From contig NC_087377.1 of assembly GCF_963675165.1 (NCBI RefSeq), positions 17,278,518-17,342,517 on the forward strand: 64,000 bases of DNA, read 5' to 3'. The stretch's first letter is position 1, and each line of letters begins with the position of its first letter. This stretch comes from Halichondria panicea (taxonomy: Eukaryota > Porifera > Demospongiae > Suberitida > Halichondriidae). Below are positions 1,206 through 63,609 of the stretch, one piece after another. A program made the translations under genes and the position numbers. The notes beneath the pieces were generated by a model, which did no database searches, was not told where the DNA came from, and was given only the letters and a program-made list of their open reading frames with translations.

Positions 1206-4101
1206 AGAAGATGTCTGACTATCTCACAATAGCAGATCTAGGAGATCTATACATAGCTACGTTTGATGCTCGAATCAAGTGGCGAAACTTCTTGCTGGTT
1301 CTTAAAATATCCTCGGATACCATCGACAGCATTGGTACAAAATGGAGAGATGATCCTGATGACTGCTATCGTGAGGGTTTGAAAGAATGGCTGAAAAGTG
1401 GTGAGAGAAGCTGGGAAGATGTTTTCAAAGCTTTGTCAAGTCCTATCGTAGGCCACGTTCACATAGCCAGGACCATCAAGAAAGATCATCTACAGTCTAC
1501 TGATGCAAGCAATCCTACTGATGTGAAGTCAGAGGGTAAGCACTAGTTTAGCACTGAGGAATCACACATGATGCTTATATAGTTTGTTAGCTACTATAAT
1601 ATTCACCCCCCCCCCAGAAAGCCCGATCCCACCCCCTATACTTCTGTATATACCATTCTCAAACACACACACAATATTCCACAGTTGACCAAAACCGCCA
1701 GAAGATCAACGATGATTTGACTGTTTTCCTAGATGAGCGTCTCGGTAAAGGTGCATTTGGAGCAGTCTTCAAAGGCAGCTACAAGGGCGAGATATGTGCA
1801 GTCAAAGTGCTGCTTCACGATGCTATGGAGATGCAGGCAAGTATTCCAATCGGCAAAAACGAAGAAGCTAGCAATGCAATTGATCGTGAAAGTGATTTTC
1901 TCAAGTCGTTCCAGCACCCAAACGTTGTTCAGTTTTTGTCGACTGCCAAGCACCCTAAATCAGGGAGTACAATCCTCGTTGTTGAGCTGATGGATTGCAA
2001 TCTGAGATCCTATTTCTCCAGCCTTGATGAAGAGTCCCTCACTAGCGAATGTGAAATTAGCCTCTCCAAAGACATGGCTTGTGGTCTGGCCTACATTCAC
2101 AGCAAGCAGATTATCCACCGTGACCTCTGTGGTGATAACGTCTTGCTGAAGCTTACACGACCAGTGCCTGTTGCAAAGATTTCCGACTTTGGCATGTCAC
2201 GGCTATATGATTCCTCCAAGCTTAGTCACACCCTCACAGCCATTGGTCACCGTATGGGGTATCTACCTCTCGAGGCTATTCGATTGGAAGAGGAGAAGTA
2301 CGATAGCAGCCTGGATGTGTTTTCCTATGGGGTGATTGTGACGCAGATTCTTTGCAAGTTGGAGACGATCAAGTCAGCCAAGGATCGATCATTCCATGTT
2401 GCCCAGATCCCTCACACACACAGGTTGAGGAAGCTTATCGACAGTTGTTTGCAAGAAGACATGAGGAGGAGACCATCTGCCAGGGACATCTGTGAGTCAA
2501 TAATAAGTACATTATGTGTTTTACATTTCAGCTAACTGTAACCCTAACGAAAAAATCATATCCGTCTATTAATGTTGGTATCGATTTTAGATACTTACCT
2601 GACAACAAGCTCGGACCCAGTGGAGGCAACAAAGAAGGAGTCAAAGGACACTGAACAAGTCAAGAAGGTGCGTACATGTAGTGTGATAATGAGATTCCCA
2701 CAGCAACAATAGTATTGTACCTTAACATGCATGGATGCTGTCTCATGTGTTAAGCCGTAACTACACATCTGTGTGAGTGTGCCTATAATTATGTACTTCC
2801 TTTAGCGGAAATTGTTGCTTGTTCTCATTCTGTTGTAGAATTTCCGCTAATGATATTTACGTCTTTGTTTGATTTCCACCAACGTTCCCCTGTACAGGCT
2901 CACAGGGAACACATTGGCCACAAAGATGCTGAGCTGGTCAGGAGAGACGCCATCATTCAACAGCAGAGACAGGTGAGACAAAATGCACCATTATATTATT
3001 GCAGAGCTATAGTAGAAGCTTTGATCTCTTATAATCGTACTGTACATTCTATTAGACTGGTGGGCGTGGCCTCTTAAGCTAATTAGAGAAAGTGATTTAG
3101 TGTGCATGCAATTATTGCTACAAGTAACAATCGCTTGTTAGTAGACACTGTCCTAATTACACTCATTCATTATTCAGGGTCCCCCTCCCAGAGAGTTGAG
3201 ACCATTCACTCTGAAATGGAGAAGAGGAAAAGACATGCCAATCAAGATGAGCGCCTCGGTACAGAGTGTTGTTATCGGTGACACGGTGTATGTTGGTGGA
3301 GGGCGTACAGACAATGATCGTGACATGTGTACAGTGATGAAGCTCGAGCAAGATCAATGGACCAAACTACCAGAGTACACTGCCTATTGGTTCGCTATGA
3401 CATCACTCGCTAATCGACTAATGCTGGTGGGAGGAAATGATCCAAGAAACAACAAACCCACGAATCAACTAGCAGTGTTTGAATCAGGGGAATGGCCTCA
3501 CCCATACCCACCAATGAACATTGCTCGCCATTCCTCAACAGCTGTCTCCTTCAGCAACCACATCATTGTAGCTGGTGGGTGTGATGATAAAGTACGTATC
3601 TCCTCTGTGGAGGTGTTGGACGTGGCATCAAGAAGATGGTACATTGCTCAGTCACTACCTAACCCACAATCAGAACTGAAATCGACTCTCGTAGGAAACA
3701 CCCTCTACCTAATGGGAGGGTGGGATCACACTCGGAGTGCAACTAAGACAGTGCACCACGTCGACCTCAATGAACTCATTGCAAAGGCCCTTTCCAACCT
3801 GGACGCACCCACTCCCTGGCAGACCTTACAGGAAGTACCATTCGTGCGATCAGCTCCTCTCAGTATTGGGAGGTCACTATTAGCCGTTGGTGGACGGGAC
3901 AACAGACACAACACAAGTTCATCGATCTTCCTCTACCAGCCTGACACCAGGAGGTGGGTGAAAGTGGGAGACCTGCCTACTGCACAATACTCTTGCACAT
4001 GCTCAGTACTTCCTAGTGGAGAGGTCATTGTAGCCGGAGGACAGACAAAACTATTTGGTAATTATGTTCAAACAGTTGATTTCTTTTGTATAAGCGATTA
4101 A
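1206..4101 (+). CDS. Gene 1: Death domain - kinase (type A) - coiled coil - Kelch protein
   Basis: Five coding exons can be joined in phase: 1206-1535 (ATG at 1211, after a CTCTCTACAG acceptor), 1685-2491, 2591-2667, 2898-2972 and 3178-4101, giving 735 residues. Residues 1-100 form a Death-fold domain. Residues about 120-377 are a protein kinase of TKL flavour: glycine loop GKGAFGAVF, AVK lysine, HRDLCGDN catalytic loop and DFG are all present, so activity is likely. A 26-residue linker and a charged 25-residue coiled-coil exon follow. Residues 429-735 hold six Kelch repeats with GG doublets. No signal peptide or membrane segment is seen, so the protein is probably cytoplasmic. The architecture suggests a receptor-kinase adaptor signalling through Death-domain contacts and a propeller ligand; function is inferred. 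A non-coding upstream exon is likely because the ATG exon begins at an acceptor. Confidence 0.86.
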
Positions 4102-4850
4102 TTAGTTATTGTAATATGTTGTGCATTGTTAACGATCTTTTTGAAAAAAGTTTTCTAATTAAGTTCGCATATTTCGTTTATTTTTATTTGAACTGTTCAT
4201 TTCTTCTCTATAAGTGCTAATTACCGTATAGCGTGAAATTTTTGAGGCATTTATATTTTGTGGATAGGCCTCTTTTCGTTGCACAATGTTCGCGGAATGA
4301 CTGCTCACCAGAAGCCACGCCTTAAATATTTGCACGGTATAGCAGGTAAGAGAAAATTAAGTTGCAACAGAATTTTATCGCATATAATTATAGTTATTAT
4401 GATGACATGAAGTGGTACATACATAATTACATTGCCAGAAAATAGTACAAAAACAGACAAAATAATATTTAACAGTCTCATAACAAGTTCAGGTCCTTGG
4501 TTGGGGTCTTGTCCTCGGGTAGGGTGGACGCCTTCTCCCAGAATACAAAGTCTATCTCCTCTTCCGAGACAGACCAGTGAGGGGTGGGGCTCGGGAACTG
4601 AGGGGTTAAAGAGTCACATGATCATAGTCATACTGCATGAGTGGAAGTTTGAGGGCTTAGGAAGTAAGGGGTGAGGAAATCACATGATAACAGTAGCTAT
4701 AATTTATACTGGCTAAATGCAAAATGGCTCAACTATGATAAAAGGGACACCACACACAACACATGTACTGGTATACAATATGTACGTACTTACATTATGA
4801 ATAATAGAATAATCGTAATATCTACGCACTTGGTTTTTCGAGTAACCAAA
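4102..4850 (-). pseudogene. 3' flank of gene 1 with damaged terminal exon of gene X
   Basis: AT-rich 3' flank to about 4477. From 4478 (stop) to about 4596 on the minus strand lies a copy of the terminal exon of unidentified gene X, whose intact copies read SDSEEEIDFVFWEKASTLP and end KDLNLL. This copy has several substitutions and small indels around 4512-4585 that the other copies lack, so it is probably dead. Nothing else is recognised up to 4850. Confidence 0.5.
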
Positions 4851-6158: not shown

Positions 6159-6232
<74 letters not shown>

Positions 6233-6576
6233 CGTTATTTGGGAGGTAGTTACCATCATGCAAATTCTAACCATGTAATAAGAAAGGGAAAATAATACGA
6301 AAACGAAACGTCTTAGAAGCCGGATACCTTTAAAAAAGCGTTTTTAAGTGCTAGTTTTTATATGTTACTTGGTGTGAAGTGTGTGTGTGTGTATTACCTG
6401 GGTATCATGCACAAGGCCAAAGTTAGGGCCCAAGTCACTGGCCTGTAGCTGCTCCACACTCTCCCCATCATCACTCTGACTTATCTCTATCTCAAACTGT
6501 GAACTGGGTACCACCTCTTCAGTAGCGATAGTAACCGTCTCCACGTCGGTCGGCTCTGTTCCTACGTGTAGTATCT
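4850..6576 (-). pseudogene. USF-like copy A, zipper exon deleted
   Basis: Exons matching intact copy B can be placed at 6398-6576, about 6002-6136, 5662-5797, 5275-5330 and about 4850-4950 (minus strand). Lesions: the second exon has lost about 40 bases near its donor, and the normal donor context is gone. The basic region reads ERWRRDRINELI where copy B reads ERRRRDRINELI, replacing a basic residue. The donor of the bHLH exon is lost at 4850, and the zipper/C-terminal exon (852 bases in copy B) is missing through a deletion of about 1.9 kb relative to 11080-12955. It could at most make a bHLH peptide without dimerising zipper; pseudogene is the simplest reading. Confidence 0.7.
6162..6231. 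repeat. (TG)n microsatellite in USF copy A intron
   Basis: Uninterrupted TG dinucleotides over about 70 bases next to the acceptor of a USF exon. The same intron carries TG tracts in copy B (14321-14396) and copy C (27937-27990), showing the tract predates the duplications. Confidence 0.95.
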
Positions 6577-7192
6577 CTGTATTAAAACAGTTTTTAAGTG
6601 TTTGCTTTTATGTTACTTGGTGTGAACTCTGTGTGGGTACATACCTGGGTATCATGCACAAGACCAAAGTTAGGGTCCACATTATAACCAACTACACATT
6701 ATACACAAGTACCGTACTTGTTCAATTTAAGGCCACCCTCCAAATATGCGACACCCTCGATCTTAGGTAATATTCTGACCTCTAAAAGTAGCGACTGCTG
6801 TGTGTGACAATTATTTTTTTATGTTGCGTCCTAAATAGAGGTCAGACCACAGCCTCGATTCCAGGCCGCTAGAAACAATATAATTTTAAGCGGCCTATAA
6901 TCGAGTATAGTAGAGTAACCTCCAATTAGATGCGACCCTCTAAATATGCGACACCAGGAATTTTTCTCAACCTCCAAAAAGAAATGACCTCTCGCTTTGT
7001 AATTTAATATTTATGAATAACTGTACCTTGTTAATGTTCTTGATGAAGGTTCCTCAGTAGTCCCTGTCCATGGACTCATGTCTTCAGCCTCCACCAATAC
7101 AGACAAATAGTTTGACCACTTGCTCAGAGTTTCAAAATTGACAGCATAATTTCTTCTTCTCTCTAGCTAGTATAGTGCAGTGAAAGACCAGC

Positions 7193-7221
7193 CACGTGGT
7201 TTAGCAATGTTATCGCACGTG
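7193..7221. promoter_or_regulatory. Paired CACGTG E-boxes between USF copy A and gene 2
   Basis: CACGTG at 7193-7198 and 7216-7221, copies of 906/929. The pair lies about 290 bp before the ATG exon of gene 2 and upstream of the divergent USF copy. The surrounding region (6577-7491) duplicates 291-1205 with a handful of substitutions and two compensating one-base indels. Confidence 0.45.
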
Positions 7222-7491
7222 ACAGCTATTGTTTATTCCTGCAGAGAAAGAGGGAGGGTCTCGTTGTAGCTGAGCTAGCTGTTGTCCTGTACTTCTGTAT
7301 CGTGCCTGGTATCAAGCTGTGAAGATACTGTAGCTCTGGATTATTATCAGTAAGTGCAGACAGCACTGTTTTATTTTCTGCATATAGATCTATGGTACAT
7401 GGTTTTGATGATATAATTTGCACACACCAAATATTTATACATAATTACATGTACCTTCATATCATTGTTTATCTTATTCCACTCTCTACAG

Positions 7492-10387
7492 AGAAGATGT
7501 CTGACTATCTCACAATAGCAGATCTAGGAGATCTATACATAGCTACGTTTGATGCTCGAATCAAGTGGCGAAACTTCTTGCTGGTTCTTAAAATATCCTC
7601 GGATACCATCGACAGCATTGGTACAAAATGGAGAGATGATCCTGATGACTGCTATCGTGAGGGTTTGAAAGAATGGCTGAAAAGTGGTGAGAGAAGCTGG
7701 GAAGATGTTTTCAAAGCTTTGTCAAGTCCTATCGTAGGCCACGTTCACATAGCCAGGACCATCAAGAAAGATCATCTACAGTCTACTGATGCAAGCAATC
7801 CTACTGATGTGAAGTCAGAGGGTAAGCACTAGTTTAGCACTGAGGAATCACACATGATGCTTATATAGTTTGTTAGCTACTATAATATTCACCCCCCCCC
7901 CAGAAAGCCCGATCCCACCCCCTATACTTCTGTATATACCATTCTCAAACACACACACAATATTCCACAGTTGACCAAAACCGCCAGAAGATCAACGATG
8001 ATTTGACTGTTTTCCTAGATGAGCGTCTCGGTAAAGGTGCATTTGGAGCAGTCTTCAAAGGCAGCTACAAGGGCGAGATATGTGCAGTCAAAGTGCTGCT
8101 TCACGATGCTATGGAGATGCAGGCAAGTATTCCAATCGGCAAAAACGAAGAAGCTAGCAATGCAATTGATCGTGAAAGTGATTTTCTCAAGTCGTTCCAG
8201 CACCCAAACGTTGTTCAGTTTTTGTCGACTGCCAAGCACCCTAAATCAGGGAGTACAATCCTCGTTGTTGAGCTGATGGATTGCAATCTGAGATCCTATT
8301 TCTCCAGCCTTGATGAAGAGTCCCTCACTAGCGAATGTGAAATTAGCCTCTCCAAAGACATGGCTTGTGGTCTGGCCTACATTCACAGCAAGCAGATTAT
8401 CCACCGTGACCTCTGTGGTGATAACGTCTTGCTGAAGCTTACACGACCAGTGCCTGTTGCAAAGATTTCCGACTTTGGCATGTCACGGCTATATGATTCC
8501 TCCAAGCTTAGTCACACCCTCACAGCCATTGGTCACCGTATGGGGTATCTACCTCTCGAGGCTATTCGATTGGAAGAGGAGAAGTACGATAGCAGCCTGG
8601 ATGTGTTTTCCTATGGGGTGATTGTGACGCAGATTCTTTGCAAGTTGGAGACGATCAAGTCAGCCAAGGATCGATCATTCCATGTTGCCCAGATCCCTCA
8701 CACACACAGGTTGAGGAAGCTTATCGACAGTTGTTTGCAAGAAGACATGAGGAGGAGACCATCTGCCAGGGACATCTGTGAGTCAATAATAAGTACATTA
8801 TGTGTTTTACATTTCAGCTAACTGTAACCCTAACGAAAAAATCATATCCGTCTATTAATGTTGGTATCGATTTTAGATACTTACCTGACAACAAGCTCGG
8901 ACCCAGTGGAGGCAACAAAGAAGGAGTCAAAGGACACTGAACAAGTCAAGAAGGTGCGTACATGTAGTGTGATAATGAGATTCCCACAGCAACAATAGTA
9001 TTGTACCTTAACATGCATGGATGCTGTCTCATGTGTTAAGCCGTAACTACACATCTGTGTGAGTGTGCCTATAATTATGTACTTCCTTTAGCGGAAATTG
9101 TTGCTTGTTCTCATTCTGTTGTAGAATTTCCGCTAATGATATTTACGTCTTTGTTTGATTTCCACCAACGTTCCCCTGTACAGGCTCACAGGGAACACAT
9201 TGGCCACAAAGATGCTGAGCTGGTCAGGAGAGACGCCATCATTCAACAGCAGAGACAGGTGAGACAAAATGCACCATTATATTATTGCAGAGCTATAGTA
9301 GAAGCTTTGATCTCTTATAATCGTACTGTACATTCTATTAGACTGGTGGGCGTGGCCTCTTAAGCTAATTAGAGAAAGTGATTTAGTGTGCATGCAATTA
9401 TTGCTACAAGTAACAATCGCTTGTTAGTAGACACTGTCCTAATTACACTCATTCATTATTCAGGGTCCCCCTCCCAGAGAGTTGAGACCATTCACTCTGA
9501 AATGGAGAAGAGGAAAAGACATGCCAATCAAGATGAGCGCCTCGGTACAGAGTGTTGTTATCGGTGACACGGTGTATGTTGGTGGAGGGCGTACAGACAA
9601 TGATCGTGACATGTGTACAGTGATGAAGCTCGAGCAAGATCAATGGACCAAACTACCAGAGTACACTGCCTATTGGTTCGCTATGACATCACTCGCTAAT
9701 CGACTAATGCTGGTGGGAGGAAATGATCCAAGAAACAACAAACCCACGAATCAACTAGCAGTGTTTGAATCAGGGGAATGGCCTCACCCATACCCACCAA
9801 TGAACATTGCTCGCCATTCCTCAACAGCTGTCTCCTTCAGCAACCACATCATTGTAGCTGGTGGGTGTGATGATAAAGTACGTATCTCCTCTGTGGAGGT
9901 GTTGGACGTGGCATCAAGAAGATGGTACATTGCTCAGTCACTACCTAACCCACAATCAGAACTGAAATCGACTCTCGTAGGAAACACCCTCTACCTAATG
10001 GGAGGGTGGGATCACACTCGGAGTGCAACTAAGACAGTGCACCACGTCGACCTCAATGAACTCATTGCAAAGGCCCTTTCCAACCTGGACGCACCCACTC
10101 CCTGGCAGACCTTACAGGAAGTACCATTCGTGCGATCAGCTCCTCTCAGTATTGGGAGGTCACTATTAGCCGTTGGTGGACGGGACAACAGACACAACAC
10201 AAGTTCATCGATCTTCCTCTACCAGCCTGACACCAGGAGGTGGGTGAAAGTGGGAGACCTGCCTACTGCACAATACTCTTGCACATGCTCAGTACTTCCT
10301 AGTGGAGAGGTCATTGTAGCCGGAGGACAGACAAAACTATTTGGTAATTATGTTCAAACAGTTGATTTCTTTTGTATAAGCGATTAA
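7492..10387 (+). CDS. Gene 2: Death domain - kinase (type A) - coiled coil - Kelch protein
   Basis: Tandem copy of gene 1, shifted by 6286 bases. Exons are 7492-7821 (ATG 7497), 7971-8777, 8877-8953, 9184-9258 and 9464-10387; the 735-residue product is identical to gene 1 in every coding exon I compared. Death domain, active-looking kinase (HRD and DFG intact), coiled coil and six Kelch repeats are all present, including identical residues at the positions that vary in the other paralogues. The copy is therefore very recent, homogenised by gene conversion, or an assembly artefact joining two haplotypes. Beyond about 10800 the units diverge: this one is followed by the intact USF copy B, gene 1 by the deleted copy A. 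That argues for a real duplication. Confidence 0.85.
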
Positions 10388-11181
10388 TTAGTTATTGTAA
10401 TATGTTGTGCATTGTTAACGATCTTTTTGAAAAAAGTTTTCTAATTAAGTTCGCATATTTCGTTTATTTTTATTTGAACTGTTCATTTCTTCTCTATAAG
10501 TGCTAATTACCGTATAGCGTGAAATTTTTGAGGCATTTATATTTTGTGGATAGGCCTCTTTTCGTTGCACAATGTTCGCGGAATGACTGCTCACCAGAAG
10601 CCACGCCTTAAATATTTGCACGGTATAGCAGGTAAGAGAAAATTAAGTTGCAACAGAATTTTATCGCATATAATTATAGTTATTATGATGACATGAAGTG
10701 GTACATACATAATTACATTGCCAGAAAATAGTACAAAAACAGACAAAATAATATTTAACAGTCTCATAACAAGTTCAGGTCCTTGGTTGGGGTCTTGTCC
10801 GAGGGTAGGGTGGACGCCTTCTCCCAGAATCCAAAGTCTATCTCCTCTTTCGAGTCAGACAGTGAGGGGTGGGGCTCGGGAACTGAGGGGTTAAAGAGTC
10901 ACATGATCATAGTCATACTGAGTGGAAGTTTGAGGGCTTAGGAAGTAAGGGGTGAGAAAATCACATGATAACAGTAGCTATAATTTATACTGGCTAAAAG
11001 CAAAATGGCTCAACTATGATAAAAGGGACACCACACACATCACACGTACTTACATTATGAATACTAGAATAATCGTAAGAGTCAGTTAAAGTGATACCTT
11101 TTAATTGTGGAGGGTGAGAGCTGCTGAGCTTTGGCACTCTCCAGGAACTTGTCAAAATCCTCCTCGTCCTGAGTCAGTGTT
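10388..11181 (-). CDS. Gene X, two 3' exons (unidentified coiled-coil protein)
   Basis: After the AT-rich 3' flank of gene 2, two minus-strand exon-like blocks are seen. Block 11098-11181 has a good acceptor, reads TQDEEDFDKFLESAKAQQLS and ends at an AAAAG/GTATCA donor. Block 10764-10882, after a pyrimidine-rich acceptor, reads PSLSDSEEEIDFVFWEKAST and ends KDLNLL then TGA. The phases of the two do not fit directly, so an exon between them may be missing, or these are relics. I do not recognise the family; the acidic, phospho-site-like C-terminus suggests a soluble protein. The terminal exon recurs after every Kelch gene in the window. Confidence 0.4.
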
Positions 11182-11808: not shown

Positions 11809-14317
11809 CTACTGTTGAGAGGATTGGTCCACCGTTTCCATAGACATTGAATCTTGCCCGGGGCTACCAGCACTTGAGTTGCTTGTGAGCACATTCTGAG
11901 CCAGAATCAGAGTGTTGAGCAGACTAGCAGCAGCCGCGGCAGAGAGACCACCACCACCACCACCCCCGCCATTGTTGTTGGCTTGTGACAGCATGGAGGA
12001 TTTCGGTACAGGAGTGGACGGAGAAGTGGTCGTGCTCGCAATGGAGGATAGAGTTTGTACGAGTGAGCTTAAGAGTGGTGTGTTTGGATTAGAGGCTCCA
12101 GTCGGCAGCGATGATTGTAAGAGAGGAGAGAATTGTGACGAAGCTGACAAGTGCATAGGTTGTGCTTGCGAAGGTGTCAGGCTGGAGACAATGCCACCAA
12201 GTTGTTGTAGGGATGAGATAGAACTTGGTGTTTGGTTGTGTGCCAGTGAGGTCAACAGAGGGCTGTTGGTGAGGTTCTGTGCCAGGGATAGTAGTAGTTG
12301 CTGTGCTGCTACATTGTTAGTTTGTTGTGTGGATTGTTGTGGAGGGGAGACAGAAGTGGTCGGTGGTGAGTGGGTCACTACTGTGTTGAGGAGACTCTGG
12401 GCCAGAGGAGAGTTTAGAAGTTGCTGGTTAGGTTGCTTTTGACCAGAGGAAGCAGCTGCATCGATTCCAAACTGGATAATCTGTGCTCGAAGAAATGCGT
12501 TCTCTTTCTCTAGGACTTGGATCTGGTTTTGAAGCATTGCTAAAGCGTTGGTTGATTTCTCTGCGATTTTGGCACTGGCTGTGAGTTGTTCGTTTTGAAA
12601 CACGAGCTCTTTCAAGTAGTCCACTGTCTTGTCTAGTACCGTTCCCTTGCTGTACACATACTGCAGTCAGGGAAACATGATGTGAGGGTGAGACATGTAC
12701 GTGGAGATATCAAAAAAACATGCTTAGTTGCTGTTAAAAAATAGCAATTTTATTTTATGTGTAACTAACTACATGTGTTATATACGATGAACTCTGCTGG
12801 ATTCTATGATACTAGTAACTAACGTAACACTGTGCTCTGCACTAAATGCATGCTTAGCAATAATAGTAATTAAAAAAAACCAAGTTAGTGATATTTCAAT
12901 GGTTTTTCCAATAGTACTTTAGTACACACACTCACAGACACACACACTCACCCCGACAATGGAACCAGTAGTTGCGTCTTTCTTCTGACAAGCAGGCACT
13001 ATCTGAGCCAGTACCTTGATGAGCTCGTTGATCCTGTCCCGACGCCGACGCTCAACTGGGCGTGGGAAGAACAACAACAACAACTGGTAATTATCGTGTT
13101 TAGGGCATGTACAATGAAGCTGAGCCAATTGGCAAAATGAATGAACCTTGACCTCACACACACACACGTACACCTACTGTACAGTATAAAAACCAAGACA
13201 TAATTAATAATTAAAATGGACAATAATGCGTTTACAGCATTAGATAGCTTTCACACAACAAGTAAGTTATTAGTTTTGAAAGTGGCAGATTTGATGTTAA
13301 AGCTTCGTAACTGTACTTTGTGGGAAATGCTTCTATTTGATTATGACCACATACGTACATGTACATCTGTTGTACACTATAACTTTCAGTATTGAATTTG
13401 CATCACCCTCATTGTGTGTAGCCTTCCTCTGAGCTTCCCTGTTGGCGGCCATATCCCCAGACCTGCAAACCAACCACCATAATAACAACACTCCTCACAG
13501 TTACCGTATTACTAGAATGTTTTACGAGCATATGTGAATTTTTAAACAATAAAATTGCAAAACCTAATTTTGGGTAAATACACACGATCCTTGCCAGAAC
13601 GCAACAGTTAGATCGCAAAGCGTTGCCGATTTGGCTGATTCACAAAGGTTTTTTTACTGCAAAATATTCTAGTAATACGGTGTGTAGCAAGAATGATGCT
13701 TTCCCTAACATACTGTCATACATGTTATGCAGAGGTAGGCAATCACATGAACTGTGTACTCACAACTGCATTTGAACGATGGGGTCGGCCGTGTGATAAT
13801 CCATAGTTGATATCCCGCTCATCTTGGGTCCTATAGGTCGACCCATTGCATGCAGTATCTCAGCACTACTGGATGGTGGGATCATCACATACAGAGGACC
13901 TGAACACACACACAACAACATATAAAAAGTGACTATTATTATAAAACAATTTTTCAACACCACTTCCAAGAAACCTCAAACATTAGCAATAATACTCATG
14001 GTTCTGCATTTAATTAGTATGTACAAGCACTTGGATAACTTATCGAAGCCTATAACTTTTGGATTTGGCAAAAAAGCAATCGTCACACTGATAAATTTGG
14101 CCTCCATTACTCACCATTTTGTCCAGACTCTGAACCAGATGAGGTGCTCCTAGTGATGAGGAACTGAGATGAGGGGGTGGTCTGTCCACCTTGCTGCATC
14201 TGGATAAGGGCGTGGCCTATAGCGTTGAGGGTGGAGCCATCCTCAGAGGTCATGTCAGAGGGCAAACCATCATCGCTAGTTAGCGTGTGGACCTCCTGTG
14301 TGAGTGGGCAGGAACAA

Positions 14318-14361
<44 letters not shown>

Positions 14362-17815: not shown

Positions 17816-19835
17816 ATCCTATATTTAAGTATTTTCAACTATAATATTATTTTATAGACTAACGGCTTGGACGAGCGTTTCAATCAGACGTTGCAAAACA
17901 TGCTAGAAGACTGGAGTAGCTACCTGGACACATGTGTTTTCGCATGCCATACCTCTCGTCATAATTCAACAAAGTTTACTCCTTTTGAACTCATGTTCAA
18001 TCGTCAAGCTACTCTTCCCATTGATGTAGAAGTCTCAAGCATTTCTCCTGACCAAGCTGCTCGCGAGTATATATCAGCAGCAAATGCCCAATCTAGATGT
18101 TACACGTACTCGTGAACACAATCATGTACGACTGAGCCAAGCAAAAACCTATATTCTTGCCGCCCAAAAGAAACAGAAGGAATTGTATGATAAGAAACAT
18201 GCACAGCCTAAGAGATATATGGTTGGTCAATTAGTCCTGAAACTAAATCATACTCGCAAAAAGACAAAAGGTGGGAAGCTGAAGAAGAGGTACACTGGCC
18301 CTTACAAAATCATCTCTGTTAAACCACGAGGTGCATATGAGATAAGCGATGGATCAAAGACAGTACTAAAGCCATACAACGATCCACCTACTTGCGATTC
18401 TGGATCAATGGACTCTGCTCACTCTCCTCCTGAGGACTCTGCTCACATAACCTCTGCTCACCTGGAATCCCCTCTTGAAGACTCCGCTCACACAACCTCC
18501 GCTCACCTGGAATGCCAGAGATGGCGACTATGGAAAACTGGGTGGAATGCAGCACATGCAAGGAGTGGTATCATTACGACACCTGTGTGAACGTTCCTGC
18601 CGCTTTTCTCAAAAAATCAGCTGTTTGGCACTGTATGCAGTGCAGTGCTAAACCAGTCTAAGACGTAACTGTTAACCGTCCATAAACTATGAACCATGCA
18701 CCCGTACCGTCTGTATCTATTCCCGGACAGAACTTCGGCATTATAATTATACGTAGTAGTAGTAACATTATTTTATCAAGCTGTAAAACTGTCAATCGTT
18801 AATAGATCTTTCTTTTGAAACACTTGAGTCTTAAGAATGTGGAGGCCTCAAGGTTCACATGCTGCAGCTCTATCTAGTACACCTGGCTGACAAGCTAGGC
18901 TGCTATAGTTCCTGAATATTATGTGACTGCGTCCCCTACATACGCTCCTGGTCCAGAGACGTCTTTTTGTCTAGGCGGACTGATTATTTCAGGGGGGGAC
19001 CAATTTTTTCTGAAAATTTCAGTCCCCGGACCGAAATTTTCATTGAAAAAATTGGTCCCCGGACCAGTTTTTTCAGGACCATTTTTCCAGTGACAGAACA
19101 AAGAAAGAAAGAAGGAAGCAACTAAGAAAAAGGAGAGCCTGCCTTGCTAAGTCGCGTGATCCCCTACTGACGTAGACAAATTTTAACGAGCGTGGGAGAT
19201 AGAAAACCTCAATAACTGTCCTCCCACACAGTACTTGGAGCGCATTTACCAGGAACATAATCTGTACAGTACAGTGCAGTAGAGTCAGCCTTCATGAGAC
19301 CTTTAGTCAGTAGAGGAAGTATGAAAGACTAGAGTAGAGTAGACTATACACTGCTGTAATAATTAATCAAGTGGGTCTGTTCTGAACTCAAGAAAAAAAA
19401 CTGAGCTAAATTTAGATATTTAGTCTCTTTAGTCTTTACTAGGTAAGCCCTCGTCTACAATGTCTCCACGCTTGATTCTGGCTTACTATCTACGATGCTA
19501 ACAGCTTTTATTTAGAGTTTGCAATGCGTAGGCATGCTGTAGCTTTTTGCTCTGTCAGGCTCCGCCCAGCTAGTGATTGCCCACGTTTATTTTCACTCGT
19601 CTACCACTCGTCTACTATACCGTCACGCGACTTAGCAAGGCAGGCTCTCCTTTTTTCTTAGTCTCTTCCTTCTTTCTTTCTTTGTTCCTCCAATTCTTCC
19701 CGTATTTTATCTTATTGAACTGCAGTGACAAAGAACAGAAAAAGGAGAGGCTGCGAAGGAGGCTATCCTTCACCGGCCTTAATAGTGGGAAGTGCGGCCT
19801 GGGATCGAGGCTATATCATGCTGTGAAGATACTGT

Positions 19836-20629: not shown

Positions 20630-20809
20630 GATACTGTACTGTACAGAGCCTCTGGATTATTATCAGTGAGTGCAGACGTAGACAGCACTGTTTACTGCAT
20701 GTACATGATTTAGATGGCATGATATAATTTGCACACACTAATTGATAGTAATTCTGACATAATATATAATTATTATACATTCATGTTTATCTTATTCCAC
20801 TCTCTACAG

Positions 20810-27934: not shown

Positions 27935-27936
<2 letters not shown>

Positions 27937-30005: not shown

Positions 30006-30167
30006 TGACATAGCCAGGACCATCGAGAAAGATCATCTACAGTCTACTGGTGCAAGCAATCCTACTGATGTGAAGTCAGAGGGTAAGCACTAGTTCAGCA
30101 CAGGAATGCATATCTCATACATGATGCTTAGTTTATTAGCTAGCTACTATAATATTCACCCGGGTCC

Positions 30168-30257
<90 letters not shown>

Positions 30258-46994: not shown

Positions 46995-47032
46995 CAAAGG
47001 TCTATGTCTGTAGCTAGCTAGCTGCAAAAGCA

Positions 47033-50000
47033 ATGTTTTCTTTGCGAGATGATGCTGACTTGAGGGAGTTTGTGCTGGAGAATGTGGAGCACTTTGGAGA
47101 GGAGAGAGTTCTAGGAACTGGCTCCTATGGCTCTGTTCAAGAGGTCAGTCACTGCATGCTCTGTTTCTGTGCACTGTCTCTAGTGTATCTGCTAGCTATT
47201 CAAGTGTGACTGCCTCCATGCACAGGTGATGATCAATGGTGAGGTGTATGCAGCCAAGAAGATCCACGAGGTTCTCCTGGAGACGGACGAGCGTGGTGGA
47301 GTGGCCAACCTAGCTGGGAACTACCGCCGAGAGTGTCGACTCATGGCTCGCATCCGTCACCCCAACATCACCCAGTTCATTGGGCTGTGTTTTGTGGCTG
47401 GCTCTCGACTGCCCCTCCTGGTCATGGAGAGGTTGGACTCAAGTCTGGACGATCTCCTGGAGTCCACCCCCAACATACCCCTCTCTGTCACCCAGTACGT
47501 TCTGGTCTGTGTGGCTCGAGGGCTGCTCCACCTGCATTGTGAGTCCGTGGTCCATCGTGACCTCACTGCCAGGAACGTCCTGCTGACGGCATCTCTGAGA
47601 GCCAAGATCACAGACTTTGGTAACTCTCGTATCGTGAATCTAGAGCCTGGTCGACTGGCCAGGACTCTGACGAGGTTTCCTGGGACACTGGTGTACATGC
47701 CGCCCGAGGCCCTCTCTGACAGAGGCCACAGTGTGTATGGACCCAGTCTGGACGTCTTCTCTTTCGGAGTGCTGCATTTGTTTGCACTCACACAAGTATG
47801 TGTAGTTAATGATATTCATAGGTTAGATTCCTGGTGACCATTCATGCAGTGAATTACCTTATAAGTATTGTGGTTGTATGTGTTGGGGAGATCCCCCTTT
47901 AATATTGGTGACCTTCAGCAAATTAATGCATTTTGTATGTATGATTGTGAATATACGTGCACTCGTTTTCTCCATACATACAGACATACATAAAAACAAT
48001 CATGACAGTCAGTATTCACATGTTCTTCCACTCGTGTCATTGGACTAGGTGTTTCCAGGAGATCTCCTTGCCCCCACGTACAGCGACCCCAACAACCCAG
48101 ACCACCTCCTGGCTCGCTCAGAGTTTGAGCGTCGAGGTCCCTACACGGCTCTCCTTGAGAGGAGTCTGGCGGGTGGACGAGAGCACCCTTTGTTTGGTCT
48201 GGTGAGGGAGTGTCTGGCCAACACCCCAGAGAGAAGACCGACCACCGCTGAGCTCCTCTCGTCTCTGGAGGAGGTGGGGAGGGAGATGGACGGAGGACTG
48301 CTTCAGCTGGACATTGCACGAGTGAAGACTGCCAGGACCCTCAGGGCAAAGGAGAAGAGGATAGAGGCTCTACAGGTGAGTCCAGTCCAGTGAGCTAGTG
48401 GGTGCAAGGGTCTGACACTGCATGCTGTACTCTGTTCTCAGAGAGAGGTGGTCCAGAAAGACAGGATACTGGAGAGGAAAGATGAGCAACTTACTGAGAA
48501 AGATGCACTTCTAGTGCAAAAAGACAATCAACTTGAACAGCAAGGATACCAGTTGGAACAGAACGCTGCACTTCTGGTACAAAAAGATGAGCAAGTAGCA
48601 GACAAAGATACTCAGCTGATTAGACAGCAACAGGTCAGCAGAACCACTTTACTTGTTCATTATAAGTCAACAAGCTAGCTTGTTGATAACCTTTTTTCAC
48701 TTTATACAGATATTGAATAGTGTCCGTGCTAATGCTGCCACCAAAGATGGTGTGATTGCTGACAAGGACAGACAACTCAGTGAACAAGAGTCAACGATCA
48801 CTGATCTCATTTCCCAGAGAGAGGCTGCTCTAGTTGAGAGGGCCGCTCTCTTACAGGTATTATAGTAGTCACCAAATGCACACACTCTTATACGCTAGTA
48901 TTATACTACAATAATGATATTTGTTTGCGTACATGTAGCTAAGTGTGTCGATGAGATTCCAACAATAGTAGTATACCTCAACAATTGATGCTATTGTATA
49001 AATCATGTTAAGCTGCTAAATACACATCCGTTTGAGTGTGCCTATAATTATGTACTTCCTTTAGCAGAAATTGTTGTTTGTTCTCGTTCTGTTGTAGAAT
49101 TTCCACTACTGTTATTCACGTCTGTGTTTTAATTCAAAGATTTCCACCAACGTTCCCCTGTACAGGCACACAGGGAACAGATTGGGCACAAAGATGCTGA
49201 GCTGGTCAGGAGAGACGCCATCATTCAACAGCGGAGACAGGTGAGACAAAATGCACCATTATATTATTGCAGAGCTATAGTAGAAGCTTTGATCTCTTAT
49301 AATCGTACTGTACATTCTATTAGACTGGTGGGCGTGGCCTCTTAAGCTAATTAGAGAAAGTGATTTAGTGTGCATGCAATTATTGCTACAAGTAACACTC
49401 GCTTGTTAGTAGACACTATCCTAATTACACTCATTCATTATTCAGGGTCCCCCTCCCAGAGAGTTGAGACCTCCACTCACTCTGAAATGGAGAAGAAGAA
49501 AATACATGCCAATCAAGATGGGTACCTCGGTACAGAGTGTTGTTATCGGTGACACGGTGTATGTTGGTGGAGGTAGTGCAGACAATGATCGTGACAGGTG
49601 TACAGTGATGAAGCTCGAGCAAGATCAATGGACCAAACTACCAGAGTACACTGCCTATAGGTTCGCTATGACATCACTCGCTAATCGACTAGTGCTGGTG
49701 GGAGGAATTGATCCAAAAAACAACAAACGTACCAATCAGCTTGCAGTGTTTGAATCAGGGGAATGGACTCACCCGTACCCATCAATGAACATTGCTCGTT
49801 CTTCCTCAACAGCTGTCTCCTTCAACAACCATATCATTGTAGCTGGTGGGTATGATGATAAAGAACGTACCTCCTCCTCTGTGGAGGTGTTGGACGTGGC
49901 ATCAAGAAGATGGTACATTGCTCAGTCACTACCTAACCCACGATCAGATCTGAAATCGACTCTCATAGGAAACACCTTCTACCTAATGGGAGGGTGGGAT

Positions 50001-50369
50001 CACACTACTATGAAGACAGTGCACCACGTCGACCTCAATGAACTCATTGCAAAAGCCCTTTCCAACCTGGACACACCCACTCTCTGGCAGACCTTACAGG
50101 AAGTACCACTCGTGCGGTCAGCTCCTCTCAGTATTGGGAGGTCACTATTAGCCGTTGGTGGAGCGGACGACAGTGTCAACCCAAGTTCATCGATCCACCT
50201 CTACCAGCCTGACACCAGGAGGTGGGTGAAAGTGGGAGACCTGCCTACTGGACGATACTACTGCACATGCTCAGTACTTCCTAGTGGAGAGGTCATTGTA
50301 GCCGGAGGACAGACATATTCATTTGTTTATATTCAAACTGTTGATTTTTTCTCTATAAATGCTAATTAG
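47033..50369 (+). CDS. Gene 5: kinase (type B) - long coiled coil - Kelch protein
   Basis: Seven exons join in phase: 47033-47143, 47226-47795, 48049-48375, 48442-48633, 48710-48856, 49166-49240 and 49446-50369, giving 781 residues. The kinase (about 20-320) has glycine loop GTGSYGSV, YAAKK lysine, HRDLTARN and DFG, with PPEAL after the activation loop, so it should be active. It differs clearly from type A and there is no Death domain. Residues 337-449 form a coiled coil of near-repeats (LVQKDEQ, LTEKDAL, VADKDTQL), joined to the shared 25-residue coiled-coil exon and the six-repeat Kelch exon (475-781). Coiled coils usually drive oligomerisation. The ATG follows an E-box/ETS promoter block and has a 36-residue leader exon that splits the kinase glycine loop. 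A cytoplasmic receptor-like kinase role is inferred. Confidence 0.86.
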
Positions 50370-54937: not shown

Positions 54938-54960
54938 TGAGTCAACGTACTTAACTACCA

Positions 54961-57900
54961 ATGTTTTCTTTGCGAGATGATGCTGACTTGAGGGAGTTTG
55001 TGCTGGAGAATGTGGAGCACTTTGGAGAGGAGAGAGTTCTAGGAACTGGCTCCTATGGCTCTGTTCAAGAGGTCAGTCACTGCATGCTCTGTTTCTGTGC
55101 ACTGTCTCTAGTGTATCTGCTAGCTATTCAAGTGTGACTGCCTCCATGCACAGGTGATGATCAATGGTGAAGTGTATGCAGCCAAGAAGATCCACGAGGT
55201 TCTCCTGGAGACGGACGAGCGTGGTGGAGTGGCCAACCTAGCTGGGAACTACCACCGAGAGTGTCGACTCATGGCTCGCATCCGTCACCCCAACATCACC
55301 CAGTTTATTGGGCTGTGTTTCGTTACTGGCTCTCGACTGCCCCTCCTGGTCATGGAGAGGCTAGACTCAAGTCTGGACGATCTCCTGGAGTCCACCCCCA
55401 ACATCCCCCTCTCTGTCACCCAGTACATTCTGGTCTGTGTGGCTCGAGGGCTGCTCCACCTGCATCGTGAATCCGTGGTCCATCGTGACCTCACTGCCAG
55501 GAACGTCCTACTGACGGCATCTCTGAGAGCCAAGATCACAGACTTTGGTAACTCTCGTATCGTGAATCTGGAGCCTGGTCGACTGGCCAGGACTCTGACG
55601 AGGTTTCCTGGGACACTGGTGTACATGCCGCCCGAGGCCCTCTCTGACAGAGGCCACAGTGTGTACGGACCCAGTCTAGACGTCTTCTCTTTCGGAGTGC
55701 TGCAGTTGTTTGCACTCACACAAGTATGTGTGTAGTTAATGATATTCATAGGTTAGATTCCTGGTGACCATTCATGCAGTGAATTACCTTATTAGTATTG
55801 TGGTTGTATGTGTTGGGGAGATCCCCCTTTAATATTGTTGACTTTCAGCAAATGCATTTTGTATGTATGATTGTGAATATACGTGCACTCATTTTCTCCA
55901 TACATACAGACATACATAAAAACAATCATGACAGTCAGTATTAACATGTTCCTCCACTTGTGTCATTGGACTAGGTGTTTCCAGGAGATCTCCTTGCCCC
56001 CACGTACAGCGACCCCAACAACCCAGACCACCTCCTGGCTCGCTCAGAGTTTGAGCGTCGAGGTCCCTACACGGCTCTCCTTGAGAGGAGTCTGGCGGGT
56101 GGACGTGAGCACCCTTTGTTTGGTCTGGTGAGGGAGTGTCTGGCCAACACCCCAGAGAGAAGACCAACCACCGCTGAGCTCCTCTCGTCTCTGGAGGAGG
56201 TGGGGAGGGAGATGGACGGAGGACTGCTTCAGCTGGACATTGCACGAGTGAAGACTGCCAGGACCCTCAGGGCAAAGGAGAAGAGGATAGAGGCTCTACA
56301 GGTGAGTCCAGTCCAGTGAGCTAGTGGGTGCAAGGGTCTGACACTGCATGCTGTACTCTGTTCTCAGAGAGAGGTGGTCCAGAAAGACAGGATACTGGAG
56401 AGGAAAGATGAGCAAATAGTACAGAAAGATGAGCAACTTACTGAGAAAGATGCACTTCTAGTGCAAAAAGACAATCAACTTGAACAGCAAGGATACCAGT
56501 TGGAACAGAACGCTGCACTTCTGGTACAAAAAGATGAGCAAGTAGCAGACAAAGATACTCAGCTGGTTAGACAGCAACAGGTCAGCAGAACCACTTTACT
56601 TGTTCATTATAAGTCAACAAGCTAGCTTGTTGATAACCTTTTTTCACTTTATACAGATATTGAATAGTGTCCGTGCTAATGCTGCCACCAAAGATGGTGT
56701 GATTGCTGACAAGGACAGACAACTCAGTGAACAAGAGTCAACGATCACTGATCTCATTTCCCAGAGAGAGGCTGCTCTAGTTGAGAGGGCCGCTCTCTTA
56801 CAGGTATTATAGTAGTCACCAAATGCACACACTCTTATACGCTAGTATTATACTACAATAATGATATTTGTTTGCGTACATGTAGCTAAGTGTGTCGATG
56901 AGATTCCAACAATAGTATTATACCTCAACAATTGATGCTATTGTATAAATCATGTTAAGCCGTAACTACACATCCGTTTGAGTGTGCCTATAATTATGTA
57001 CTTCCTTTAGCAGAAATTGTTGTTTGTTCTCGTTCTGTTGTAGAATTTCCACTACTGATATTCACGTCTGTGTTTTAATTCAAAGATTTCCACCAACGTT
57101 CCCCTGTACAGGCACACAGGGAACAAATTGGGCACAAAGATGCTGAGCTGGTCAGGAGAGACGCCATCATTCAACAGCAGAGACAGGTGAGACAAAATGC
57201 ACCATTATATTATTGCAGAGCTATAGTAGAAGCTTTGATCTCTTATAATCGTACTGTACATTCTATTAGACTGGTGGGCGTGGCCTCTTAAGCTAATTAG
57301 AGAAAGTGATTTAGTGTGCATGCAATTATTGCTACAAGTAACACTCGCTTGTTAGTAGACACTATCCTAATTACACTCATTCATTATTCAGGGTCCCCCT
57401 CCCAGAGAGTTGAGACCTCCACTCACTCTGAAATGGAGAAGAGGAAAAGATATGCCAATCAAGATGGGTACCTCGGTACAGAGTGTTGTTATCGGTGACA
57501 CGGTGTATGTTGGTGGAGGGTTTGCAGACAATGATCGTGACAGGTGTACAGTGATGAAGCTCGAGCAAGATCAATGGACCAAACTAACAGAGTACACTGC
57601 CAAGTACTTCGCTATGACATCACTCGCTAATCGACTAGTGCTGGTGGGAGGACGTGATCCAAGAAACAAGAAACCCACCAATCAGCTTGCAGTGTTTGAA
57701 TCAGGGGAATGGACTCACCCGTACCCACCAATGAACATTGCTCGTGATTCCTCAACAGCTGTCTCCTTCAACAACCACATCATTGTAGCTGGTGGGCATG
57801 ATGATAAAGTACGTATCTCCTCTGTGGCGGTGTTGGACGTGGCATCAAGAAGATGGTACATTGCTCAGTCACTACCTAACCCACGATCAGGACAGAAATC

Positions 57901-58318
57901 AACTCTCATAGGAAACACCCTCTACCTAATGGGAGGGTTCGATCACACTGGGACGGTAACCAAGACAGTGCACCACGTCGACCTCAATGAACTCATTACA
58001 AAGGACCTTTCCAACCTGGACACACCCACTCTCTGGCAGACCTTACAGGAAGTACCACTCATGTGGTCAGCTCCTCTCAGTATTTGGAGGTCACTATTAG
58101 CCGTTGGTGGAGTGGACGACAGATTCAACCCAAGTTCATTGATCCACCTCTACCAGCCTAACACCAGGAGGTGGGTGAAAGTGGGAGACCTGCCTACTGC
58201 ACGATACAACTGCACATGCTCAGTACTTCCTATTGGAGAGGTCATTGTAGCCGGAGGACAGACCAACAGTTATACTATTATTCAAACTGTGGATTTCTTC
58301 TCTATAAGTGCTAATTAG
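54961..58318 (+). CDS. Gene 6: kinase (type B) - long coiled coil - Kelch protein
   Basis: A close paralogue of gene 5. Exons 54961-55071, 55154-55723, 55975-56301, 56368-56580, 56657-56803, 57112-57186 and 57392-58318 give 789 residues. Kinase motifs GTGSYGSV, YAAKK, HRDLTARN and DFG are intact. The first coiled-coil exon is 21 bases longer than in gene 5, adding one seven-residue repeat (QIVQKDE type), so the coil grows by whole heptads. The Kelch module is complete, with residues different from gene 5 at the variable loop positions. The promoter is displaced: an E-box (CACGTG at about 53602) and upstream sequence lie beyond a 1.2-kb foldback element that ends 23 bases before the ATG. Either the element supplies a new promoter or transcripts start inside it. 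Confidence 0.85.
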
Positions 58319-60666: not shown

Positions 60667-63609
60667 ATGGCCACTCAAGCAACCCCCGATCATTCTCCTG
60701 AGTATTTGTCCATCCAAGAGAACTTTGAAGCATTGGTGTCCACATTCAAAGCTCAACCTGCTGCATACGCTGATAGCCTCTTCTCCAATGGCTACATACC
60801 AGATGAAGTTCTCGAGTACTCTAGACTGAATGGAGTTATGGACTCGGATAAATCTCGAAAGATTCTGGATACTATCATCCATCGAATTAAGCTCAATCCC
60901 AGTGTATTCCACGGCTTTATCGCTGCCATCGCTGGCCCTTCTACTGACGATGTTGTCAAGAAACTACATGATAGTTACGAGCGTCACAAGACTGCGACCA
61001 GCCGTGTTGAACAGCCGCAACTCTCTCCACCCCCACACCAGCAACCTCCACCAGAGGCTCCGACGTCCTTCAGCTTCCCACACCTCGACACCTCTAGCCT
61101 TAATGAGGATGATAGAATTGAATTGGAGGATCGGCTCATACGTGATACAAGGAAAATGATTATTAGGTTCACTGCTTTTACTCTAATTATACAAAGATCA
61201 TTTGAAAACCAACGGATCCCTTTGGATCAGATTAAAGATTCCGTTCTCAGCCTCGAATCTTTCAACGACGGGATTGGAATTAAAGTCCTAGATGCAGAAG
61301 ATAGGCAAGAGATCAAAAATGCCAAAAATTTGGCCCAAGTCTTCATGACTCTACGTGCTTACATCTCTTTTTTCAACTATGAGATAGTGGAGTACCTCAT
61401 CGAGCTGCTGGGATCACCAGACGACCAAACACAACTGCGTGAGTATTGCTCTGCACTTGATCAGTTCTGCCAGCGAAATGTGTTTGAAGTTCCGGCCGAA
61501 GCTTTCTCTTCAAAATCTCGTATCAAAACGGCTAAAGTGTTTGTTATCAAGTGCACTGAGCGAATAGCCACACTGGAGTATGTGAAAAGGCTGACTCCGA
61601 GAATTGCTGAAGCACTTGGTCTACAAAGAGCAGCGCTACAACTCTGTTCAATCAAACAAGGCTGCTTGGAGCTCCACTTTCTCGTCACTGTAGCTGTTGC
61701 CAAGCGTATCTACCCAGTGTCCCCTACTGTACAGGCAGCTCTCAGTGCGATGGGGGTCAAAGTTCTCACCTGTGGAAGTACGGATGAGGTGGAGACATTT
61801 CTGCTGGTACAGTAAGTTCTTGAAAAGGTACTATATACCCGTACTCTGCATAATTATACCATAACTTAATTAACAAGCATGGGCCCTATAATTTAGTTAC
61901 ATGAATATAATATTCGTATTATTATAATAATTACAAGTATGTACATGTCACGTACAGGGATCTGAGCAAACTCAAACTAAAAGGTGTTGAGGAGATGTCT
62001 AAAGACACAAGGACGAGCATGACAACCTTCACTCAAATGAAGGACACTAAAGGTATGAGTGTTTGGCCAACTTGATATCCTATAATCTTTCTTTTAGATA
62101 CAAGAGGCTCGGACACAGTGGAGGCAACAAAGAGGGAGTCAAAGGACACTCAACCAGTCAAGAAGGTGCGTACATGTAGTGTGATAATGAGATTCCCACA
62201 GCAACAATAGTATTGTACCTTAACATGCATGGATGCTGTCTCATGTGTTAAGCCGTAACTACACATCTGTTTGAGTGTGCCTATAATTATGTACTTCATT
62301 TAGCGCAAATTGTTGATTGTTCTCGTTCTGTTGTAGAATTTCCACAATGATATTCACGTCTGTGTTTTAGATTTCCACCAACGTTCCCCTGTACAGGCTC
62401 ACTGTGAGCAGATTGAGCACAAAGATGCTGAGCTGGTCAGGAGAGACGCCATCATTCAACAGCAGAGACAGGTGAGACAAAATGCACCATTATATTATTG
62501 CAGAGCTATAGTAGAAGCTTTGATCTCTTATAATCGTACTGTACATTCTATTAGACTAGTGGGCGTGGCCTCTTAAGCTAATTAGAGAAAGTGATTTAGT
62601 GTGCATGCAATTATTGCTACAAGTAACACTCGCTTGTTAGTAGACACTATCCTAATTACACTCATTCATTATTCAGGGTCCCCCTCCCAGAGAGTTGAGA
62701 CCTCCACTCACTCTGAAATGGAGAAGAGGAAAAGACATGCCAATCAAGATAGGTGACTCGGTACAGAGTGTTGTTATCGGTGACACGGTGTATGTTGGTG
62801 GAGGTAATGCAGGCAATAATCGTGACATGTGTACAGTGATGAAGCTCGAGCAAGATCAATGGACCAAACTACCAGAGTACACTGCCTGGTACTTCGCTAT
62901 GACATCACTCGCTAATCGACTAGTGCTGGTGGGAGGATATGATCCAAGAAACAAAAAACGCACCAATCAACTTGCAGTGTTTGAGTCAGGGGAATGGACT
63001 CACCCGTACCCACCAATGAACATTGCTCGTGATTTCTCAACAGCTGTCTCCTTCAACAACCACATCATTGTAGCTGGTGGGCATGATGATAAAAGACGTA
63101 CCTCCTCTGTGGAGGTGTTGGACGTGGCATCAAGAAGATGGTACATTGCTCAGTCACTACCTAACCCACGATCACATCTGAAATCTACTCTCATAGGAAA
63201 CACCCTCTACCTAATGGGAGGGTGGGATCACACTCGGAGTGCAACCAAGACAGTGTACCACGTCGACCTCACTGAACTCGTTGCAAAGGCCCATTCGAAC
63301 CTGGACACACCCACTCTCTGGCAGACCTTACAGGAAGCACCACTCGAGTTGTCAGCTCCTCTCAGTATTGGGAGGTCACTATTAGCCGTTGGTGGACGAG
63401 ACGACAGAGCCAACCCAAGTTCATCGATCCACCTCTACCAGCCTGACACAAGGAGGTGGGTGAAAGTGGGAGACCTGCCTACTGCACGATACTTCTGCAC
63501 ATGCTCAGTACTTCCTAGTGGAGAGGTCATTGTAGCCGGAGGACAGACAAGTGCATATCTGCTTACTTTTAGTCCAACTGTTGGTTTCTTCACTATAAGT
63601 GCTAATTAG
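60667..63609 (+). CDS. Gene 7: CARD-like - helical domain - coiled coil - Kelch protein (no kinase)
   Basis: Exons 60667-61811, 61958-62052, 62098-62165, 62397-62471 and 62677-63609 join in phase (2, 1, 0, 0) to 771 residues. Residues 15-105 (ENFEALVSTFKAQPAAYADS ... SRKILDTIIHRIKLNPSVF) have the helix spacing of a CARD-like Death-fold domain; this call is moderate. Residues about 110-150 are a Pro-rich hinge. Residues 150-381 form a helical domain with FFNYEIVEYLIELLGSP at its core, which I cannot name. A 32-residue exon leads into the same linker (DTVEATKRESKDTQ), coiled-coil exon and six-repeat Kelch exon (462-771) used by the kinase genes. No kinase is present. The single large first exon suggests acquisition as one block. 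Role inferred: an adaptor or sensor with the family's propeller but CARD-type signalling. Confidence 0.83.

Follow-up and report, generated by a model that had tools for sequence, protein, structure and literature searches.

Hypervariable residues on one face of a Kelch propeller in a large sponge gene family with differing N-terminal heads

The DNA considered here, a window of 64,000 nucleotides from the sponge Halichondria panicea (assembly GCF_963675165.1, contig NC_087377.1, positions 17,278,518 to 17,342,517), carries a row of genes, numbered 1 to 7, and six exons encoding a Kelch propeller that belong to a large family in this genome. Across this family, some 17 residues of an otherwise nearly constant six-bladed propeller are highly variable, cluster on one face, carry a strong excess of nonsynonymous change and stand near linkage equilibrium with one another, and the sequence around them is homogenised between genes whose upstream exons differ in class. 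It is rather likely that this is a large family of recognition receptors, probably intracellular, in which a Kelch pocket serves as the sensor for interchangeable heads and which is shaped by diversifying selection and by recombination of the cassette that encodes the propeller. There is good support both for diversifying selection acting on the pocket and for recombination across the whole cassette, and the pattern suggests a role in the recognition of non-self, microbial or allogeneic, with immunity or allorecognition as the likeliest use.

Hypervariable residues and selection on one propeller face

The Kelch exon of gene 7, used to search the assembly that contains the window (131,455,214 bases in 39 contigs), returned at least 125 Kelch exons of 79–100% identity, nearly all over the full length of the query, a number that is a lower bound because the best candidates were scored. 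A stop codon is present in three of these 125 exons and absent from 122. Two arms of contig C1, at 15.48–16.14 Mb and 16.71–17.39 Mb, hold the majority, and the remaining ones lie near 11.0 Mb of the same contig, on C6 and on C28. The two arms are oppositely oriented, with the listed exons on the minus strand in the left arm and on the plus strand in the right arm. For comparison, 77 exons were read (six from the window, 29 from the search loci, two from C6 and 40 fetched singly), of which 73 are distinct; after removal of four identical and two stop-bearing sequences, the 71 distinct and stop-free exons were analysed. Five of the six window exons are distinct, gene 2 being identical to gene 1, and these five match the Kelch_1 profile with E values from 3.6e-23 to 2.5e-33, all past the curated cut-off. 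Their six four-stranded blades are those of the Kelch propeller fold, and a Pfam scan returned Kelch families for them and no WD40 family.

In the alignment of the 71 exons, entropy is at least 2 bits (2–3.45), with 8–13 amino acids each, at 17 of the columns that precede column 304, the mean over all 335 alignment columns being 0.49 bit; in the framework, 81 of 270 columns are invariant and the mean entropy is 0.23. An earlier note on this DNA had listed, for genes 1, 3, 5, 6 and 7, differing residues after GGG, LVGG, NIAR and VAGG, before CTCSVL, and in a pair before FAMTSL (3385–3390, 22924–22929, 49656–49661, 57602–57607 and 62887–62892). Residues and coordinates agree with the translations, and the pattern is confirmed and becomes stronger genome-wide. 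The further claim that all six repeats vary at equivalent positions holds at 2 bits or more for all six d-a loops and for the residue directly after GG in blades 1–5, but the post-GG residue of blade 6 is milder (1.6 bits, with Q in 50 of the 71 exons). The b-c loop of blade 6 (codon alignment columns 304–323) varies in both length and sequence, and columns from 304 on were excluded from the rate and linkage tests. Combined over 13 sites, the variable residues form 65 distinct haplotypes in 71 exons, which differ on average at 10.7 of the 13 sites.

The structural placement was read from an AlphaFold2 model of the gene 7 Kelch exon (62677–63609; predicted local distance difference test score, pLDDT, 85; predicted template modelling score, pTM, 0.86). 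Sixteen of the 17 hypervariable residues lie in d-a or b-c loops and none falls among the 41 residues of the a-b and c-d loops (p = 7.6e-9), the strand limits having been placed manually on the basis of the model's DSSP string, with their ends shifted by a few residues, so that the placement of the loop-edge residues 127 and 196 hinges on these limits. The d-a and b-c loops of a Kelch propeller, which build the substrate pockets of Kelch proteins, lie on the same face, in accord with the portions drawn on of two papers on Kelch substrates. The mapping onto a propeller proposed in the earlier note thus places the variable residues on a single face, assigned from propeller topology and not from measured distances. 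Going round the propeller of gene 7 on the plus strand, the variable codons encode residue 34 in loop 6d-1a (62755–62757; 12 amino acids in the 71 exons), residues 51 and 53 (62806–62814; residue 51 aligns with KLHL12 Phe289) and 58 (62827–62829) in loop 1b-1c, residues 78 and 79 in loop 1d-2a (62887–62892; 2.18 and 1.50 bits, residue 79 aligning with KLHL12 Tyr321), residue 95 in loop 2b-2c (62938–62940; 13 amino acids), residues 126 and 127 at the 2d-3a junction (63031–63036; 2.79 and 1.35 bits, residue 127 aligning with KLHL12 Leu371), residue 143 in loop 3b-3c (63082–63084), residue 174 in loop 3d-4a (63175–63177), residue 190 in the blade 4 b-c loop (63223–63225; aligning with KLHL12 Tyr434), residues 194–196 at the end of that loop and the edge of strand c (63235–63243), residue 232 in loop 4d-5a (63349–63351), residues 248 (63397–63399) and 252 (63409–63411) in the blade 5 b-c loop, and residue 280 in loop 5d-6a (63493–63495).

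Nucleotide diversity (pi) at the 17 codons that reach 2 bits is 0.52, 0.59 and 0.22 at codon positions 1, 2 and 3, compared with 0.056 at 92 fourfold sites. In this tree-free comparison, diversity at positions 1 and 2 of the hypervariable codons is about ten times the fourfold level. An alternative list of 17 codons gives 0.48, 0.59 and 0.25, against 0.049, 0.044 and 0.055 at the 275 other core codons; the lists vary in that one pi analysis took columns 80 and 128, where the list of at least 2 bits has 59 and 201 instead. A purpose-written test of the fixed effects likelihood (FEL) type, applied to 66 of the 71 sequences (five near-identical ones dropped) over 295 codons with kappa fixed at 2.5, found the nonsynonymous rate (beta) above the synonymous rate (alpha) at 12 of the 295 codons after Bonferroni correction, with beta of 6.4–18.6 and a mean alpha over all sites of 1.05; at an uncorrected p < 0.05, 32 codons lie above and 31 below, and the p values are rough because the sequences recombine and the tree is not their true history. 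Nonsynonymous change at the hypervariable codons, for which the earlier note had wished to see the site-wise ratio to synonymous change (dN/dS) computed, comes out far above neutral, and this excess, together with the one-face placement, supports the diversifying selection on the pocket that it had suggested.

Recombination and the shared cassette

Linkage was studied in 63 of the 71 exons, eight near-identical ones being dropped. Between hypervariable sites more than three codons apart, mutual information is close to that of shuffled data (mean Z -0.1 to 0.9, no pair above 3), and neighbouring sites reach a mean Z of 2.4. At 14 biallelic framework sites, the squared correlation (r2) is 0.01–0.07, compared with 0.013 by permutation, and all four combinations occur in 70% of site pairs. 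Framework divergence is independent of genomic distance (r = 0.02) and of arm (2.98% on the same and 3.01% on opposite arms; 29 exons), and in pairs whose framework divergence exceeds 2% that at hypervariable sites stays level at 0.38 to 0.44. Given the linkage results and this flat divergence, the Kelch exons behave like a single recombining pool. Clustered changes in two pairs of loci (L020/L036 and L012/L021) are as expected of conversion tracts.

This pool extends across genes whose upstream exons belong to three head classes, A, B and C, described below. In 19 exons, framework divergence of the Kelch exon within classes equals that between classes, with 3.29% for AA, 3.35% for AB, 3.02% for AC, 3.29% for BB, 2.98% for BC and 2.81% for the single CC pair. 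An alignment of 28 loci around the Kelch frame start shows little diversity between about -400 and +1350, with a rise to about 0.3 or more outside these limits. Similarity between classes starts at -413 to -499 in all seven pairs compared and ends, with pieces joined, at +1359 to +2124, so that the left edge of the cassette is sharper than the right. Pairs within class B are similar in the upstream flank also, and the left edge is therefore a between-class feature. The cassette common to the head classes measures about 1.8 kb and comprises the end of the last intron, the Kelch exon and the 3' flank. Localised gene conversion had been offered in the earlier note as a possible cause of the variability; genes do exchange sequence, but the effect is to homogenise and reshuffle the cassette as a whole, and not to create the local variability.

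N-terminal heads and other features of the window

All gene features given here lie on the plus strand. Each Kelch exon of the window appears to run from a putative intron acceptor before GPPPREL to the stop codon: besides gene 7, these are gene 1 at 3178–4101 (open frame from 3157, with the exon start placed provisionally after the AG before GPPPREL), gene 2 at 9464–10387 (open frame 9443–10387), gene 3 at 22714–23661, gene 5 at 49446–50369 and gene 6 at 57392–58318. Genes 1 and 2 form a tandem copy with a spacing of 6286 bp (window 1–4600 and 6287–10900), near-identical over about 1000–4500 and divergent near 606–1000. Further identical Kelch exons occur at L014 and L015, about 8 kb apart, and at L017, L018 and L019, 0.5–1.5 Mb apart on both arms; recent conversion, duplication or an assembly effect are the alternatives for such identity.

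Upstream of the Kelch exon, 20 loci comprise 13 heads of class A, five of class B, one of class C and one locus with none recognised. Class A consists of a death-like frame and a kinase exon, class B of a second kinase, and class C of a module of 382 amino acids, and all classes are present in the window (A in genes 1–3, B in genes 5 and 6, C in gene 7). In gene 1, the death-like open frame, a weak assignment, lies at 1163–1546 and the kinase exon, with CAVK, HRDL and DFG motifs, at 1600–2535; from the names of the nearest PDB entries we read this kinase as probably of the tyrosine kinase-like (TKL) type. The corresponding features are found at 7449–7832 and 7886–8821 in gene 2 and at 20773–21138 and 21160–22239 in gene 3, where HCDL replaces HRDL. 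Gene 4 has a class A kinase exon at 30153–31121, after which no Kelch exon was detected by tblastn up to 49425; its kinase open frame (29989–31121) adjoins a CACACA-like repeat and there is a partial death-like match. The class B kinases of genes 5 and 6 lie at 47196–47837 and 55124–55735, and the class C module of gene 7 at 60667–61815.

Among the 13 class A kinase copies, CAVK is kept in 12, HRDL in 12 and DFG in all 13, and a stop occurs in one; the class B kinase shares 30–36% identity with them. The ratio of diversity at codon positions 1 and 2 to that at fourfold sites (pi12/pi4) is 0.44 for the class A kinase (13 copies), 0.21 for the class B kinase (seven copies), 0.73 for the death-like frame (11 copies) and 0.64 for class C (two copies), which shows the heads to be under constraint. 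With an E limit of 1, six of 11 members of the death-like frame match Pfam Death weakly, the best of them at 0.0043; a profile of the frame matches FADD at E 0.0037, and its model has six helices at a pLDDT of 52. The class C module has no match to Pfam or to PDB sequences, and a CARD-like fold is only suspected for it. Its relatives, at about 21–50% identity, are found in many other places (contigs C5, C9 and C4) and often cover only residues 130–370, as of an uncharacterised, widespread domain. Elsewhere in the window, an open frame at 18030–18590 has a weak Tf2-1-like SH3 match (E 9e-5, short of the cut-off), possibly from a retroelement fragment, and an open frame on the minus strand within the array, at 11809–12666, a weak CCDC106-like coiled-coil match (E 0.006, short of the cut-off).

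Readings of the pattern and comparison with known systems

In the receptor reading, a pocket formed by the d-a and b-c loops of the propeller, which the C-terminal exon encodes, would be the sensor, and the N-terminal exons, spliced to it, would supply interchangeable signalling heads (death-like frame plus kinase, second kinase, or the 382-residue module) in a presumably cytosolic protein. Ectopic recombination or gene conversion would keep the cassette alike in genes that have different heads and lie on both arms, over 1 Mb from one another, and would also mix its sites, and diversifying selection would hold the pocket residues highly variable. With the scaffold held constant, each gene would thus combine pocket residues almost at random, and the head joined to the propeller would turn the binding of a ligand into a signal. 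Several points weigh against this reading. The evidence for a death domain is weak, stops occur in some of the family's upstream exons, the gene models rest on exon order, and the FEL tree was built from recombining sequences with kappa fixed, leaving only the pi comparison free of a tree. Pairs of near-duplicates show framework differences and no hypervariable ones, with one difference in L079/L084 and in L034/L067, two in L061/L063, four in L066/L081, ten in L064/L066 and 12 in L064/L081, and L082/L098 has 15 framework differences and one hypervariable difference; pocket change is therefore not seen in every lineage. The 77 exons studied of at least 125 come chiefly from the top of the gene 7 similarity ranking, which biases the sample towards the C1 arms, and assembly effects may be part of the source of identical copies.

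A different origin of the variability would be a mutator that targets the hypervariable codons, for instance a diversifier built on a retroelement or a deaminase, and the third bases bear on it. The remark of the earlier note that many changed codons are NNT or NNC applies to nine sites, but column 79 keeps G, column 178 keeps A, and columns 80, 194, 200, 237 and 253 keep no particular third base. A mutator would account for many hypervariable codons in which the first two bases are near saturation and the third is kept, with the kept base differing between sites, for the rarity of codons ending in a purine (NNR) by occurrence, 22 of 638, at the nine sites that favour a final pyrimidine (NNY), and for the slower third-position nonsynonymous change that a three-rate fit finds at columns 33, 52, 54, 59, 127, 258 and 287 (uncorrected p < 0.03). 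However, third-base pi at the NNY-type sites (0.03–0.18) is about the neutral level, NNR makes up 12 of 104 distinct codons there, near the fraction of 0.091 expected from single-step change, columns 96, 144 and 178 show no difference in the fit and columns 80, 101 and 200 are faster, and several near-duplicates carry framework changes and none at hypervariable codons. A dedicated mutator is not needed for the third-base pattern and is not favoured, and we regard it as very unlikely. That the hypervariable sites merely drift in a pool of pseudogenes or of genes under relaxed constraint would fit the stops in some upstream exons and in three of the Kelch exons, yet it is highly improbable: nearly all Kelch exons are stop-free, the kinases are constrained, and drift is contradicted because nonsynonymous diversity is ten times the fourfold level.

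Other readings concern the use to which the variability is put. The propellers may be receptors for self and non-self in allorecognition, not sensors of microbes, with an advantage of rare alleles in tissue contact or fusion; more than 100 loci in one genome contrast with the animal allorecognition systems known to us, which have one or a few polymorphic loci, and we hold this use, taken alone, to be unlikely. In its favour are the near-random residue combinations, with nearly every exon having its own 13-site haplotype, and the same logic in fungal incompatibility NOD-like receptors (NLRs), whose hypervariable WD propellers recognise HET-C variants, as set out in the portions drawn on of PMC12222747. 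A distinctly unlikely reading is that signalling or adaptor Kelch proteins diverge fast for reasons other than defence, for instance in gamete or symbiont recognition. To our knowledge, adaptor families do not reach such copy number, near-complete shuffling or diversity of 8–13 residues per site, and an exon-wise six-frame search for BTB (79 matches, all 97 of 97 candidates scored) gave none on contig C1. In keeping with such divergence, what was drawn on of the two Kelch-substrate papers has the pocket occupied by peptides from proteins of the cell itself.

If the receptor reading is right, the family would add a class of receptor to what is known of immunity or allorecognition in early animals. 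It would also offer a library, made by nature, of variant pockets on a single scaffold, from which rules linking residue to ligand could be read, and the long-standing question of how animals lacking antibodies diversify recognition would become testable at a defined locus. It is possible, though doubtful, that it forms an animal combinatorial receptor system, in which the Kelch cassette is passed among more than 100 genes with differing heads and a common pool supplies every pocket residue near-independently. Exchange of this kind may be programmed and might be somatic as well as germ-line. Such a repertoire would fall under none of the antibody, variable lymphocyte receptor (VLR) and NLR types, and would be a candidate system by which an early animal recognises microbes or allogeneic tissue.

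The sponge literature, as represented by parts of the papers cited, mentions single regulated Kelch-motif genes (PMC6208332), a Kelch-type propeller family among niche-dependent ones (PMC11000336) and, in Halichondria panicea, receptor expression that differs between individuals (PMC8242945). Within the open-access literature, subscription papers and preprints being outside the scope, no Kelch-fold hypervariable receptor family of an animal was found. Membership in the BTB-Kelch (KLHL/Keap1) family of E3 adaptors is ruled out, as the BTB search placed no match on contig C1; unlike these adaptors, the present family has death-like and kinase heads and a pocket that is hypervariable among paralogues. 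It resembles the NLR expansions of the sponge Dysidea avara (PMC12909245), where candidate receptors are likewise numerous and DEATH or CARD heads occur in some, but these have a NACHT and leucine-rich repeat (LRR) architecture, and the word Kelch is absent from the main text of that source, which was drawn on in part. No NACHT was found in the C1 arrays among the best 102 of 265 candidates, nor in the ten window open reading frames scanned. Among the same best candidates, many clustered NACHT exons lie on C13, C14 and C7, a second big receptor-like expansion. Brown-algal ROCO LRR receptors, according to the portions drawn on of PMC11378527, likewise shuffle their recognition units and are under diversifying selection on the face that probably binds; they differ in that LRR-encoding exons shuffle, and in fold and lineage.

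Hypervariable propeller receptors are already described for fungal incompatibility (PMC12222747, PMC4986451). In the nwd/HNWD family of Podospora anserina (het-d, het-e, het-r), the parts of these papers drawn on describe a propeller sensor under diversifying selection in which each repeat has a few hypervariable positions at the interaction surface, and a family whose members exchange sequence and differ in their N-terminal domains, as in the Kelch family. The fungal proteins carry WD40 propellers with near-identical repeats within a gene and a NACHT domain, whereas the Kelch repeats are dissimilar within a gene and homogenised between genes, the heads are kinases or other modules, and at least 125 copies are present in a metazoan genome, one that also encodes the Wnt domains typical of animals. 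With Kelch in place of WD40 and with kinase or other heads, the sponge family is not a member of nwd/HNWD, and by analogy it appears to work like that family, which is its closest match in logic.
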